Shown here: piece by piece, positions 16,045 through 19,766 of the stretch
How positions within the stretch are numbered: the stretch's first letter is position 1
How the letters are laid out: each line of letters begins with the position of its first letter
Origin: Polyangium sp. 15x6
GTDB lineage: Bacteria > Myxococcota_A > Polyangia > Polyangiales > Polyangiaceae
Reading direction: 5' to 3'
NCBI RefSeq assembly: GCF_029960785.1
Contig: NZ_JASBQE010000005.1
Span: 1-64,000 of the forward strand
Length of the DNA stretch: 64,000 bases
The notes under the pieces: generated by a model
The model's input: only the letters and a program-made list of their open reading frames with translations
The model's database searches: none
Told to the model about the DNA's origin: nothing
Translations under genes and position numbers: made by a program

Positions 16045-16169
16045 TACCGCGGAATCCGGAGCAGATTTGAAGTTGTCCGTTTTGTTGACCCCTTCGTCGA
16101 TTGTCTGATACCCGCCGGCAAGAAGGTCGTGACGTGGTCCGAGCGTTCACGTCGACGGAGGTGGATTCG

Positions 16170-17174
16170 ATGAAGAGGCGATCGATGCGGAGGCGGGTCG
16201 GCGTGATCATGGGTGGCTCGTCGTCGGAGCTGTCCGCCGGACATGCCGTCGCGGAGGCGCTCTCCGCGCGGGGCCACGAGGTGGTCCAGCTGTCGCTCGG
16301 CGAGAGTTACGGTCCCGACCTCGCGTCCGTGGTCCAGAAAGCCCGGATCGACGTGGCCTTCCTGGCCCTCTCCGGCCGCATGGGCGAGGACGGCTGCGTG
16401 CAAGGGCTCCTGGAACTGCTCCGCATCCCGTACACGGGGTCCTCCGTGCTCGCGAGCGCGCTCGCGATGGACAAGCTGAAGGCGAAGGAGATGTTCCGCC
16501 TGCACAACGTGCCGACGCCGCCTTATTACACGGTGTCGGAGGACGCGGACCTCACGGACCTCGAGGGGATGCACGGCTCGTTCGGGTACCCGGCGATCGT
16601 GAAGCCGCGCGGGGAGGGGTCGAGCCAGGGCGTGTCGCGGGTGACGAACCTCGCGGAGCTGCGGGCGGCGCTGGAGCAGGCGTTCGAGTACGACGACATC
16701 GCGCTCGTGGAGCGGTTCGTGACGGGCGTGGAGATCAACGTCGCGATCCTGGACGGGCAGGTGCTCGGCTCGGTCGAGGTGGCGACGCCGAAGGCGATGC
16801 TGGAGGATCCCGGCGCGGAGCTCGTGAAGGTGGAGCTGTCGCCGCAGCGCGAGCGCGGGGTGCAGAACCTGGCGGAGCGGGCGGCGCGGGCGCTCGGCTG
16901 CACGGGCGCGGTGCGGGTCGATCTGCTCGTGACGGCGGGCGAGAACGAGTACGTGCTCGAGGTGAACACGCTGCCGGCGCTCTCGCCGGACGGCCTGCTC
17001 GCCCGGGCGGCCGCGGCGAAGGGCTACGATTTCAGCGAGCTCTGCGAGGCGGTGCTCGACGGCGCGAAGCTGAACCAGCCGGCGCGCCGGAAGACGCCGG
17101 TGGAGACGCTCTCGGCGGGCAGCTACCGCGCGAACGCGGCGGCGCCGGTCGCGATGATGAAGTCGGTGGGCTGA
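16170..17174 (+). CDS. Divergent D-alanine-D-alanine ligase-like ATP-grasp enzyme
   Basis: The 334-residue ATP-grasp protein has most Ddl landmarks: GGSSSE at 15-20 with the conserved Glu, GRMGEDGCVQG, IPYTGSSVLASALAMDK, the KPRGEGSSQGV nucleotide loop and LEVNTLPALS. Two features are off-family: the usual ALHG is ALSG, so the substrate-binding His is Ser68, and the YDYxAKY omega-loop motif is replaced by ATPKAMLEDPGAELVKVELSP. It may still make D-Ala-D-Ala or may join other substrates. The ATG at 16170 follows an ideal GGAGGT Shine-Dalgarno (16157-16162), so the frame opening 23 codons earlier is not needed. It is 125 nt after the PP2C gene. Confidence 0.75.
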   Translation: MKRRSMRRRVGVIMGGSSSELSAGHAVAEALSARGHEVVQLSLGESYGPDLASVVQKARIDVAFLALSGRMGEDGCVQGLLELLRIPYTGSSVLASALAMDKLKAKEMFRLHNVPTPPYYTVSEDADLTDLEGMHGSFGYPAIVKPRGEGSSQGVSRVTNLAELRAALEQAFEYDDIALVERFVTGVEINVAILDGQVLGSVEVATPKAMLEDPGAELVKVELSPQRERGVQNLAERAARALGCTGAVRVDLLVTAGENEYVLEVNTLPALSPDGLLARAAAAKGYDFSELCEAVLDGAKLNQPARRKTPVETLSAGSYRANAAAPVAMMKSVG

Positions 17175-17492
17175 GCAGCCCCTCGATCCCCGAACCCCCC
17201 CGAAAATCGTCTCTCGTTCCCCGATCCTCGCGTCGAGGCTCGCTGGTCATCGTTGCCAGCGGGTGTCGACGCGCGTCGAGGGCCCTTGGTCATCGTGATC
17301 CGCGTGGGTTGATGCGCGTCGAAGGGCGCTTGGTCATCGTGATCCGCGGGTGTCGACGCGCGTCGAGGGGCGCTGGTCATCGTGATCCGCGTGGGTTGAT
17401 GCGCGTCGAGGGCCCTCGGTCATCGTTGCCAGCGGGTGTCGACGCGCCATCGAGGGCCGCTGGTCACCGCTTTCAGCGTGGGTTGACGCGCG
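17175..17492. repeat. Alternating 43/44-bp tandem repeat between convergent genes
   Basis: Six contiguous units start at GGTCA at 17245, 17288, 17332, 17375, 17418 and 17462, spaced 43 or 44 bp. They alternate between type A (core GGTGTCGACGCG) and type B (core GTGGGTTGATGCG or its TTGACGCG variant), so the true period is an 87-bp A-B pair in three copies. Units 1 and 3 contain the 14-bp perfect palindrome TCGACGCGCGTCGA. The last unit runs into the 3' end of the hydroxylase gene. Nothing codes here; 17175-17244 shows no other feature. It may act as a transcription barrier between two convergent genes. Confidence 0.85.
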
Positions 17493-18173
17493 TCAGCCCC
17501 CTTCGTCGTCGTTTCTCTGCTGACCGAGCGTCCCGAAGAGCCAGTCGCAGAGCGGGAACGTGATGTTGAAGTTCTCGTGCGCCATGCGGCCGAGGTCGTG
17601 ATGGAGCGCGTGCCTCCGGCGCAGAGCGCGGATGGGGCGGCCTCGCGCGAGGAAGGATCCCTCCGGCAGGTGGTAGGCGAAGTGGAGCCACTCGTACGTG
17701 AGGAAGTACGCCATGGCGGTGGCCACGAAGAGCCAGCCGGCGTTCGGGGTCGCGACGGCGAAGAGGAGGAGCGCGACCGGCAGGGCCACGCCGCCGAGGA
17801 CCACGAGGATCATCACGGGGGGAAAGAGGACGATGGGGAAGTCGGCCGCGGAGTCGCAAGCCATCGCCTCGCGCGTGAAGAAGCGGTGGTGCCGCAACGT
17901 GTGGCGCTCGTAGAGGATCGGCAGGAGCTTCTTGCGCCGGTGCATCGGGCCGCGGTGCACGAGGTACTCGACGAGGTTCGCGAACAGGAAGGTGCCCGGC
18001 ACGACGAGCGCTTCGAGGAGGCGGACGCGCTCGACGCGGGAGGCGGAAAAGACGATGGCGCCGAGCGAGGCGAGGCTCGTGAAGGCGAAATGCGTCCAGC
18101 CGGCCGCGCGCGTGCTCGGCCTTCGTTCGGCGCGGTCCTGGCCGCGGAAGGCGAGCACGTGAGGCGGGGGCAT
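17493..18173 (-). CDS. Sterol desaturase / fatty acid hydroxylase-superfamily membrane enzyme
   Basis: The 226-residue membrane protein has about four hydrophobic segments and the histidine clusters of the di-iron FA_hydroxylase family: HRGPMH, HTLRHH, EWLHFAYH and RRHALHHD, ending NFNITFPLCDWLFGT. Members hydroxylate fatty acids, sterols or carotenoids; the substrate here is unknown, and myxobacteria make hydroxylated fatty acids and some sterols. A near-consensus TAGAAT (18180-18185, minus strand) lies exactly 6 nt before the ATG, with no SD, so the mRNA is probably leaderless. The gene is convergent with the Ddl-like gene across the tandem repeat. Confidence 0.88.
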   Translation of the reverse strand: MPPPHVLAFRGQDRAERRPSTRAAGWTHFAFTSLASLGAIVFSASRVERVRLLEALVVPGTFLFANLVEYLVHRGPMHRRKKLLPILYERHTLRHHRFFTREAMACDSAADFPIVLFPPVMILVVLGGVALPVALLLFAVATPNAGWLFVATAMAYFLTYEWLHFAYHLPEGSFLARGRPIRALRRRHALHHDLGRMAHENFNITFPLCDWLFGTLGQQRNDDEGG

Positions 18174-18317: not shown

Positions 18318-19766
18318 ATGGAGCGGCACGAGCTCGAGGGTTTGACGCGGGAGGAGCTGATCGCGCTGGCGGAAGAGCTCGGCATTGCGCGTCCGCGCGC
18401 GTTCACGATTCCGGAGCTCGTGGACGAGATCGTGACGCGCACGGCGCGGAGCGAGCGAGACCGCGCGCGGTCGCGTGGATGGATGGGGCGAGCGAGGGAT
18501 CTGCTCGCCGGGGTGATCGAGCGAGGTCTGCACCTGCCCGACGTGGCGAACGCGGTGCGGAGCACGCCGCCCCCGGCGAAAGGCTGGCCGACGGCGCCGC
18601 CGCCGCTCGCGACGGTGACGCTCGCGGAGATCTACGCGGCGCAGGGGTTCGTGGAAAAAGCGATCGGCGTGCTCGACGAGGTGCTCGCGCGAGAGCCGGA
18701 GCACACGGAAGCGCGCGTGCTGAGGCAGCGGCTCGTCACAGGAGGCGCGGCGCCCGCGGTCGATGAAGAGAAGGGGGAGGAAGTCGTGACCACGCCGAGC
18801 GAGACGGACAGCGAGCCCCAGCCAGCCGAGGAAGAGAGCACGACGGAGGCCGCGGTCGCGCCGGCCTCTGCCGCAGCGGACGCGGAGGCGGCCCTGGAGG
18901 CAGAGGCAGAGCCGGTCGCGCCGAAGGCGATCGCGAAGGCGATCGTGGAAGCGGCCCTCGAGGCGGAAGCGGAGGCGGAAGCGGAGGCGGCGCCGGCTGC
19001 GGAAGCGGAAGCGGTTGCAGAAGCGGTTGCAGAAGCGCCTTCGTGGTCGGCGCCCGAGGTGGACGCCATCGAGGAGCTGCCGCTGCCCGAGCGCTACGAC
19101 GTCGACGAGATCGTGGCCATCGCCGTCGATCCCGCGACGATCTACCTCTACTGGGAAGTGCGCCCCGTGAGCCTCGCGCGAGCGCGGGCTCGGCATACCG
19201 ACGGCGCGCTCGTCGTGCGCATGGCCCAGGTCACGCCGAGCTGGGATGGTCCGATCGTCGAGCAGCGGGATCTGCGCATCGACGCGCTCTTCGGCGACGC
19301 GTACCTCCGCAACTTGCGGCCGGGATCGAACGTGCGCGTGAGCATCGGCTGGCTCGCGCACGGCATGTTCGAGCCGTTCGCCATCGGCTCCGAGGTCATG
19401 ACGTCGCGAAGCGAGCCCACCACGTCGGTGTCGCTCCGCGTCGCGCAATGGACGCCCGAGCGAGGCGCGCCTGCGCAGGCCGGCGTCGCGGCCGCAGCGC
19501 CGGCTCGCGCGGAGGCCGGCGCGCCCGCGCCTGCCGAGATCGAGTCGATGCTCGCGCCGATCCTGTCGGGCACGGCGGCTCCTGTGCAGACGGGGGGCGG
19601 CGGGCGGAGCGAGGCGATCGGCGACCGCTGGCCCACGCTCGATTTCGGCGACCGCGGCCTGCCCGTCGATGCATCGAGGCCGAGCGCGCCGACGCGTGGC
19701 GGCGCGAGCGAGCTTCCGCGTGGGGGCGCGAGCGAGCAGGTTCGTCCCGGACCACGCGAACGGTAG
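18318..19766 (+). CDS. DUF4912 protein with N-terminal SAP/Rho-N-like helix pair and Ala/Glu linker
   Basis: The 482-residue protein has an N-terminal helical module of Rho_N/SAP type (about 3-40, LEGLTREELIALAEELGI), a TPR-like helical hairpin at about 95-135 (EIYAAQGFVEKAIGVLDEVL), a low-complexity Ala/Glu-rich linker (about 150-245), the DUF4912 domain at about 250-380 (LPERYDVDEIVAIAVDPAT... YLYWEV), and an Ala/Pro/Gly-rich tail. DUF4912 proteins are conserved in Myxococcota and some Bacillota, but their role is unknown; the SAP-like start hints at nucleic-acid binding. It is divergent from the hydroxylase and probably leaderless. Confidence 0.82.
   Translation: MERHELEGLTREELIALAEELGIARPRAFTIPELVDEIVTRTARSERDRARSRGWMGRARDLLAGVIERGLHLPDVANAVRSTPPPAKGWPTAPPPLATVTLAEIYAAQGFVEKAIGVLDEVLAREPEHTEARVLRQRLVTGGAAPAVDEEKGEEVVTTPSETDSEPQPAEEESTTEAAVAPASAAADAEAALEAEAEPVAPKAIAKAIVEAALEAEAEAEAEAAPAAEAEAVAEAVAEAPSWSAPEVDAIEELPLPERYDVDEIVAIAVDPATIYLYWEVRPVSLARARARHTDGALVVRMAQVTPSWDGPIVEQRDLRIDALFGDAYLRNLRPGSNVRVSIGWLAHGMFEPFAIGSEVMTSRSEPTTSVSLRVAQWTPERGAPAQAGVAAAAPARAEAGAPAPAEIESMLAPILSGTAAPVQTGGGGRSEAIGDRWPTLDFGDRGLPVDASRPSAPTRGGASELPRGGASEQVRPGPRER

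Follow-up and report, generated by a model that had tools for sequence, protein, structure and literature searches.

Dispersed palindromic tandem arrays with a near-constant count of seven units in Polyangium genomes

Small gene-less non-autonomous elements such as MITEs and REPINs reside between genes and carry terminal inverted repeats (TIRs) and target duplications. Other described systems are built from short palindromes or from tandem repeats. REPs usually occur in more than 100 genomic copies, and BIMEs, modules that are proposed to be copied by a transposase through a rolling-circle mechanism, differ extensively in length between strains, according to the available part of PMC2817692. 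The available part of PMC3733652 describes CGTC-tagged REPs as having no dedicated transposase, being mostly dimers and being rarely clustered. The sopC site of the F plasmid consists of a 43-bp repeat in twelve copies, and every copy contains a 16-bp inverted repeat, as given in the available part of PMC9178275.

The array that we describe here lies in a 64,000-nucleotide stretch of Polyangium sp. 15x6 (contig NZ_JASBQE010000005.1, positions 1 to 64,000), hereafter the window, and belongs to a family whose members resemble several of these systems. With BIME-2 of E. coli and the BIMEs of Stenotrophomonas, as far as the available descriptions go, the Polyangium arrays share dispersed extragenic palindromes, a regular tandem layout and complementary changes in the palindrome arms; abundant extragenic palindromes, the mark of REPs and BIMEs, are what we find in Polyangium as well. 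They differ from BIMEs in that two palindromes, P1 and P2, follow each other head to tail in fixed 43-bp units, seven of them in 74 of 84 arrays, and from REP/BIME systems with their cognate RAYT (Y1) in that PF01797 is missing from three of the six genomes. The likeness to sopC, within the available part of its description, resides in 43-bp tandem repeats with an inverted repeat in each, whereas sopC is one plasmid site beside sopAB and the Polyangium arrays are many, chromosomal, mostly of seven units and made of array-specific palindromes. A ParB/sopC centromere has one conserved palindrome beside parAB; the window array has ligase-like and hydroxylase-like neighbours instead. Like a MITE, the Polyangium element is small, gene-less and intergenic, and relatives have sites from which the whole element is absent (L033 and L036); unlike a MITE, its body is a tandem array. 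Some end sequences are shared between copies, and we found neither clear terminal inverted repeats nor target duplications. Short palindromes in many copies also recall the CGTC- and GTAG-tagged REPs as partially available to us. Those REPs have their tag unpaired at one end, and here CGTC is present by eye inside P2 in many units and missing from others. The available part of PMC3733652 has no mention of fixed seven-unit arrays, and words with 'Myxo' or 'Sorangium' are missing from its main text. The variable copy number that defines a VNTR is not the picture given by the 84 arrays, of which 74 have seven units, and where a CRISPR has different spacers between identical repeats, the spacers here repeat with the unit.

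Tandem Repeats Finder (TRF) places the window array at 17229-17494 with a period of 43 bp (6.1 copies, score 267) and reports the same span at a period of 87 bp (3.1 copies, score 376); 20 first-order Markov versions of the window score 93 at best. The initial annotation had described six units alternating between two types, A and B, with a true period of 87 bp, and a perfect 14-bp palindrome in two A units. Both observations hold, the two perfect TCGACGCGCGTCGA palindromes lying at 17266 and 17353. The span it gave, 17245-17500, covers a real array that is nevertheless longer, extending over about 17228-17513 with seven units when counted on P2, the first of them truncated. Unit anchors (GGTCATCG, once GGTCACCG) are found at 17245, 17288, 17332, 17375, 17418 and 17462. 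The array takes up the whole gap between a D-alanine--D-alanine ligase-like gene on the left (16101-17174, + strand; longest ORF, start uncertain) and a convergent fatty-acid-hydroxylase-like gene on the right (17493-18173, - strand), whose stop codon lies inside the last array unit.

On the + strand, a half of P1 (ATCGTCTCTCG, 17206-17216, read from the sequence) probably marks the left edge of the element. The seven-unit array itself (17228-17513), P2-centred with 43/44-bp units around the TRF core, opens with the truncated P2 of unit 1 (TCGCGTCGA, 17228-17236), followed by the first P1 palindrome (CGCTGGTCATCGTTGCCAGCG, 17241-17261). The P2 of unit 2 (17266-17279) is the perfect 14-bp palindrome and corresponds to type A, and the second P1 is at 17284-17304. 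The P2 of unit 3 (TTGATGCGCGTCGA, 17309-17322) corresponds to type B. The third P1 (17328-17348), the perfect type-A P2 of unit 4 (17353-17366), the fourth P1 (17371-17391) and the type-B P2 of unit 5 (17396-17409) continue the alternation. The fifth P1 (17414-17434) precedes the P2 of unit 6 (17439-17453), which is A-like with one extra base, and the sixth P1 (17458-17478) precedes the P2 of unit 7 (TTGACGCGCGTCAG, 17483-17496), which overlaps the stop-codon end of the hydroxylase-like gene. Arrays at this locus in other genomes start with ATCATCTCTCG, ACATCGTCTCTCG or ACATCGTGTCTCG. Elsewhere in the window, positions 1-249 and 18960-19037 hold other tandem repeats (GGCGGAAGT-type, periods 9-54; GAGGCGGAAGCG-type) that are unlike the array family.

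Each unit combines a CGCTGGTCAtcgTGACCAGCG-like P1 of about 21 bp with a TTGACGCGCGTCAA-like P2 of about 14 bp; the spacers between them are four bases long, and the first is G-rich. Adjacent REPs of a BIME alternate in orientation; here P1 and P2 are near-palindromes in their own right, repeated head to tail, with an orientation that is partly undefined. The spacing between P2 centres in 58 arrays is 43 bp in 287 of 345 cases (83%), 44 bp in 47 (14%) and another value in 11, three of which are spacings of 86 from one array with every second centre missed. Since array edges often fall near a P1 centre, the body is best read as seven 43-bp units, each centred on P2, with a spacer that is mostly G-rich and half of P1 at each edge.

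The palindrome sequences differ strongly between arrays within one genome, and changes in the arms of P1 and P2 partly compensate each other. In 52 arrays we counted 122 double-changed cells compared to 68.4 +- 6.0 in shuffles (0/500), paired cells reached 75.6% compared to 69.5% (0/500), and the covariation score was 0.273 compared to 0.185 when shuffled (0/500) and at most 0.147 with the partners slid. In the same arrays there was no excess of pairs with a double change (18 versus 17.5, 235/500) or of further pair types (52 versus 48.3, 64/500). These two of the five measures are the ones least misled by relatedness and they fail likewise in a smaller set, which weakens the claim of symmetry. 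The clearest support for symmetry comes from P1 positions 4-6 paired to 16-18 and from P2 positions 2 and 5 with their partners; at some other positions pairing does not exceed expectation or falls below it (for example P1 7/15, 0.35 versus 0.42 expected).

As the initial annotation had suggested, the array's own genome and relatives were searched. BLAST with the window array gave 11 matches in its own genome (G000, 13.38 Mb), itself included, with arrays on five other contigs, and array matches in all five other Polyangium genomes. Contrary to the absence from all close relatives that the initial annotation had named as speaking against it, an array adjoins the same hydroxylase gene in all six genomes. 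Outside the genus BLAST found only matches of 26-40 bp in three genera (G008, G029 and G038), which we take as chance matches, loci L015-L017 being without an array by eye. The covariance models R1 and R2, each spanning two units and built from 26 array windows and from 52 arrays respectively, match 6 of the 183 genomes of the order, all six of them Polyangium (E up to 1e-5 / 1e-3). Neither model matches any of the 177 non-Polyangium genomes among the best 24 candidates scored per genome, a depth at which weaker relatives in other genera could be missed. No match was found in phage or plasmid collections. The family is not described in the titles and abstract openings, mostly of open-access papers, that we searched on Polyangium and myxobacterial repeats, BIME/REP, MITE and concerted evolution, nor in the available parts of PMC3733652, PMC9304148, PMC3696898 and PMC2817692. 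As far as searched, the array family is a genus-specific set of dispersed palindromic repeats, and its constant unit number is the surprising part.

The resulting list holds at least 84 arrays, the model search having scored the best 150 candidates per genome. G005 supplies most of them, with 29 arrays read, most of seven units. The arrays are intergenic: an overlap of more than 60 bp with an open frame was flagged for 1 of 58, and with the limit at 90 bp none of the 84 was flagged. By a neighbour-gene rule the first 58 arrays form 11 shared clusters and 17 single loci; orthologous arrays are not independent, and the rule can join near neighbours, as in one cluster that holds two G004 arrays. 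Two loci, matched by their neighbouring genes, have an array in all six genomes, namely the window locus and a second one with L,D-transpeptidase-like and OsmC-like neighbours by eye. At the window locus of G003 the array is separated from the ligase gene by about 2 kb of other DNA. None of 36 hydroxylase-related loci, taken with flanks of up to 1.5 or 3 kb, gave an outgroup empty site for this locus; the ligase gene was found only in the Polyangium orthologues L137-L139.

Copy number in tandem repeats normally drifts. We counted the P2 units by wrap-around alignment with our own script and found seven units in 74 of the 84 arrays, eight in 8, four in 1 and two in 1 (mean 7.00, variance 0.50). 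The first 58 arrays contribute 54 with seven units, 3 with eight and 1 with four. Fourteen further arrays, 11 from R2 and three by BLAST only (G003 C146, G003 C160 and G004 C86), contribute 10 with seven, 3 with eight and 1 with two. Twelve more arrays came from BLAST with a 1.4-kb query containing a seven-unit array, which may favour similar length, and have seven units in 10 and eight in 2. By eye, six of the eight-unit counts look like a spurious edge match and two (L080 and L197) look real; all were left as counted. TRF, which uses no profile, gives a 42-45-bp row in 83 of the 84 arrays with a mean of 6.2 copies (SD 0.72, maximum 7.4), a mean below seven that probably reflects the trimming of divergent end units. 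For comparison, 91 other tandem arrays at the same loci (period 15-120) have 1.9-12.2 copies.

The unit sequence varies from array to array while the count stays constant. The suggestion in the initial annotation that such an array may be an unstable locus finds no support in this strikingly constant unit number. A constant seven requires either selection or a counting step, and mobility alone does not explain it. It is conceivable, and we propose it tentatively as an idea that is more probably wrong than right, that the array is counted, a copying machinery or bound complex measuring seven 43-bp units so that unit sequences turn over freely while number, helical phase and dyad symmetry are conserved across dozens of loci in six species. 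The combination of fast sequence change inside the arrays with a fixed seven makes the family a natural system for studying how a cell or a mobile element counts repeats.

Units are most alike within an array. In the first 58 arrays unit identity is 0.811 within the array, 0.682 at the same locus in other species, 0.645 at other loci of the same species and 0.583 otherwise, with end units less alike (0.75-0.76) than inner units (0.81-0.82). Identity at lag 2 exceeds that at lag 1 in only 21 of 54 arrays, and alternation as a family-wide rule is rejected on this count. Duplication of an A-B pair, as first proposed, survives as a two-unit copying step that fits the window array and one subfamily (AACGTT, below), while alternation is no hallmark of the family. 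We also compared eight orthologous array pairs between G003 and G005. Where both flanks can be aligned, in three pairs, the array differs more than its flanks: array identity is 0.82 compared to 0.97 and 0.955 for the flanks of L038/L067, 0.79 compared to 0.965 and 0.91 for L047/L075 and, with a weak contrast, 0.896 compared to 0.945 and 0.899 for L029/L071. One or both flanks are unaligned in the remaining five pairs, including L032/L074, where the array (0.88) is more alike than the sole alignable flank (0.81).

Clean empty sites, from which the whole element is absent, were obtained at two loci only. Array L033 of G005 sits between convergent genes and is missing in G003, where the flanks match 75800-76523 and 76525-77457, 1 bp apart, and in G000, where 17 bp separate them. 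For G002, G004 and G001 the alignment covers the right flank and part of the left flank (query 1-422, 1-434 and 1-150), and in none of the five relatives does it show an array beside the right flank. This absence in five relatives makes an insertion in G005 likelier than five losses. Within the left gene of L033, a 45-bp stretch (2690-2735) has dozens of matches of 82-97% identity, spread over all five genomes; at a guess, it may be a low-complexity Ser/Gly-coding sequence. The second locus, L036, is empty in G002, with the flanks 12 bp apart. Its site in G004 holds another 140-bp sequence instead, and no array lies beside the right flank in G003, G000 or G001. An interspersed repeat of about 165 bp adjoins the L036 array (2801-2967); it is far more abundant, with 83-95% identity among the matches listed, occurs in all five genomes searched and is missing together with the array at the G002 empty site. 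A small hairpin repeat (GAGCGCCGA...TTCGGCGCTCTGCGAGATCGCGAAGCGAGCTCGCC) adjoins array L177 and is also present at the G004 L036 site, where there is no array. A third locus, L171, gave no clean empty site: in G003 and G000 its flanking sequences either lie scattered or carry arrays. Neither a target-site duplication nor a clear terminal inverted repeat could be defined for the elements, which have some end sequences in common.

The order of units within arrays bears on how they spread. In the AACGTT subfamily, picked by eye and BLAST, units at the same position in eight G005 loci have an identity of 0.762 compared to 0.694 +- 0.005 when the order is shuffled (0/1000), and the inner five units of these arrays have 0.758 compared to 0.708 (0/1000). 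Eight G003 arrays give 0.745 compared to 0.695 (0/1000; inner units 4/1000). Over three genomes the values are 0.730 versus 0.679 for 19 arrays, a set without L196 and L197 and with L041, L173 and L175 (counted as eight) cut to their first seven units, and 0.719 versus 0.675 for all 21 members (0/1000). Identity in these arrays is higher at even than at odd offsets, which is the A-B-A-B pattern, and several of them have 42-87 bp of immediately adjacent flank in common. Since unit order is kept between loci, seven-unit AACGTT elements appear to have been copied whole, and the control within single genomes strengthens this claim for one subfamily. An autonomous partner with the AACGTT left end was also considered and set aside, most matches falling on known arrays with no transposase neighbour established.

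In ten type-S arrays of G005 the unit order is not conserved from locus to locus, except for an effect of the end units (0.801 versus 0.795; inner units 0.795 versus 0.794, 250/1000). We take this as rapid homogenisation; an independent origin of the arrays would give the same result. Taken together, the comparisons establish dispersal for the AACGTT subfamily, and we infer it for the rest of the family, the window copy included.

The genes around the 84 arrays are codirectional in 38 cases, convergent in 22, divergent in 16 and undecided in 8. The initial annotation had placed its array between convergent genes, which is true in the window (gene ends at 17174 and 17493) and is not a rule of the family, and these orientation counts lead us to reject a specificity for convergent ends. 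It had further suggested that such arrays may act as transcription barriers. We found no GC hairpin with a downstream T run, the signature of an intrinsic terminator, in window positions 17100-17600 and no promoter in the window array, and what could be seen does not favour a barrier. Overall, the initial observation is confirmed and its interpretation is supported in part.

One explanation for the arrays would be a transcribed structural element, in which a multi-hairpin RNA serves as a bidirectional terminator, an mRNA stabiliser or a small RNA. On either strand the window array folds better than its shuffles do (z -5.2 and -4.3), although any palindromic DNA folds well, and convergent ends are frequent among arrays with an NCGT P1 centre (19 of 37) and rare among those with an ACG or GCG centre (1 of 18), 3 of the 58 arrays fitting neither class and orthologues being non-independent. 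This explanation seems improbable to us given that the window array has no terminator-like site, that Rfam has no match in the window at gathering score, that 16 of the 84 arrays are between divergent genes and that arrays between codirectional genes point either way, against them in 24 cases and along with them in 14. The G-rich strand has T-G mismatches at 0.95 of expectation and A-C mismatches at 0.74; T-G is only somewhat better tolerated, which is no clear sign of one-strand RNA pairing, and we reject an RNA-strand signal. An ordinary minisatellite (VNTR), originating independently by slippage at many sites, would account for units that are homogenised within arrays and most divergent at the ends, for the A-B duplication step of the window array and for the type-S arrays without unit order between loci. 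It is nonetheless very hard to believe, as the same unit consensus and the same unit number are met again at loci without any relation and in different species, as unit order is common to loci of one genome in the AACGTT subfamily, and as slippage would spread the copy number, a prediction already contradicted by the constant count.

As the main rival reading, the array may be a host nucleoprotein platform, whereby a nucleoid, gyrase-like or ParB-like protein binds the dyads and needs seven units for a complex of fixed size. With 43 bp corresponding to about 4.1 helical turns and the P1 and P2 centres about 21.5 bp apart, the dyads would lie on approximately one helical face. The constant period and unit number, the partial symmetric compensation, the two loci kept in all six genomes and an architecture close to that of F-plasmid sopC, as far as the available part of PMC9178275 describes it, all agree with such a platform. 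So does the greater likeness of arrays across loci of the same genome (0.645 versus 0.583), which dispersal within the genome would match too. We regard a platform as rather unlikely, since array-specific palindromes within one genome are hard to reconcile with one sequence-specific protein and whole arrays are missing at some sites in relatives. We favour instead, with moderate confidence, the reading that the array is a genus-specific, BIME-like, non-autonomous mobile repeat that is moved in trans, homogenised in place and held at seven units.

In such a mobile repeat, a putative enzyme acting in trans would place copies of the complete element between genes, and it would probably recognise the units by their hairpins or dyad symmetry. 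Once inserted, the array may be homogenised by gene conversion or unequal exchange, which would also obscure the original unit order. Selection against losses and gains of units, or their reversal when the element is copied, would keep the number at seven. The window copy would be an old one that reached its site before the divergence of the six species. Hairpin recognition, whole-body copying and homogenisation are steps that we infer. No transposase could be linked to the element. PF01797 (Y1, IS200/IS605-RAYT) is present in three of the six genomes, with none in G002, G004 and G005, which makes the usual REP mover doubtful here and leads us to reject a RAYT as the mover in all six. If the family is BIME-like, it thus occurs in genomes half of which lack the usual transposase type. 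The arrays would also serve as markers with which small mobile DNA can be tracked through the large genomes of myxobacteria.

A recurrent neighbour of the arrays is a paralogous gene of about 235 aa, two members of which were compared to Pfam and NCBIfam and gave no match. At six loci in five genomes (L051:1275-1979, L055:2175-2864, L063:2136-2840, L066:1970-2668, L069:3412-4116 and L082:3413-4117) an array is located 125-135 bp upstream of its predicted start.
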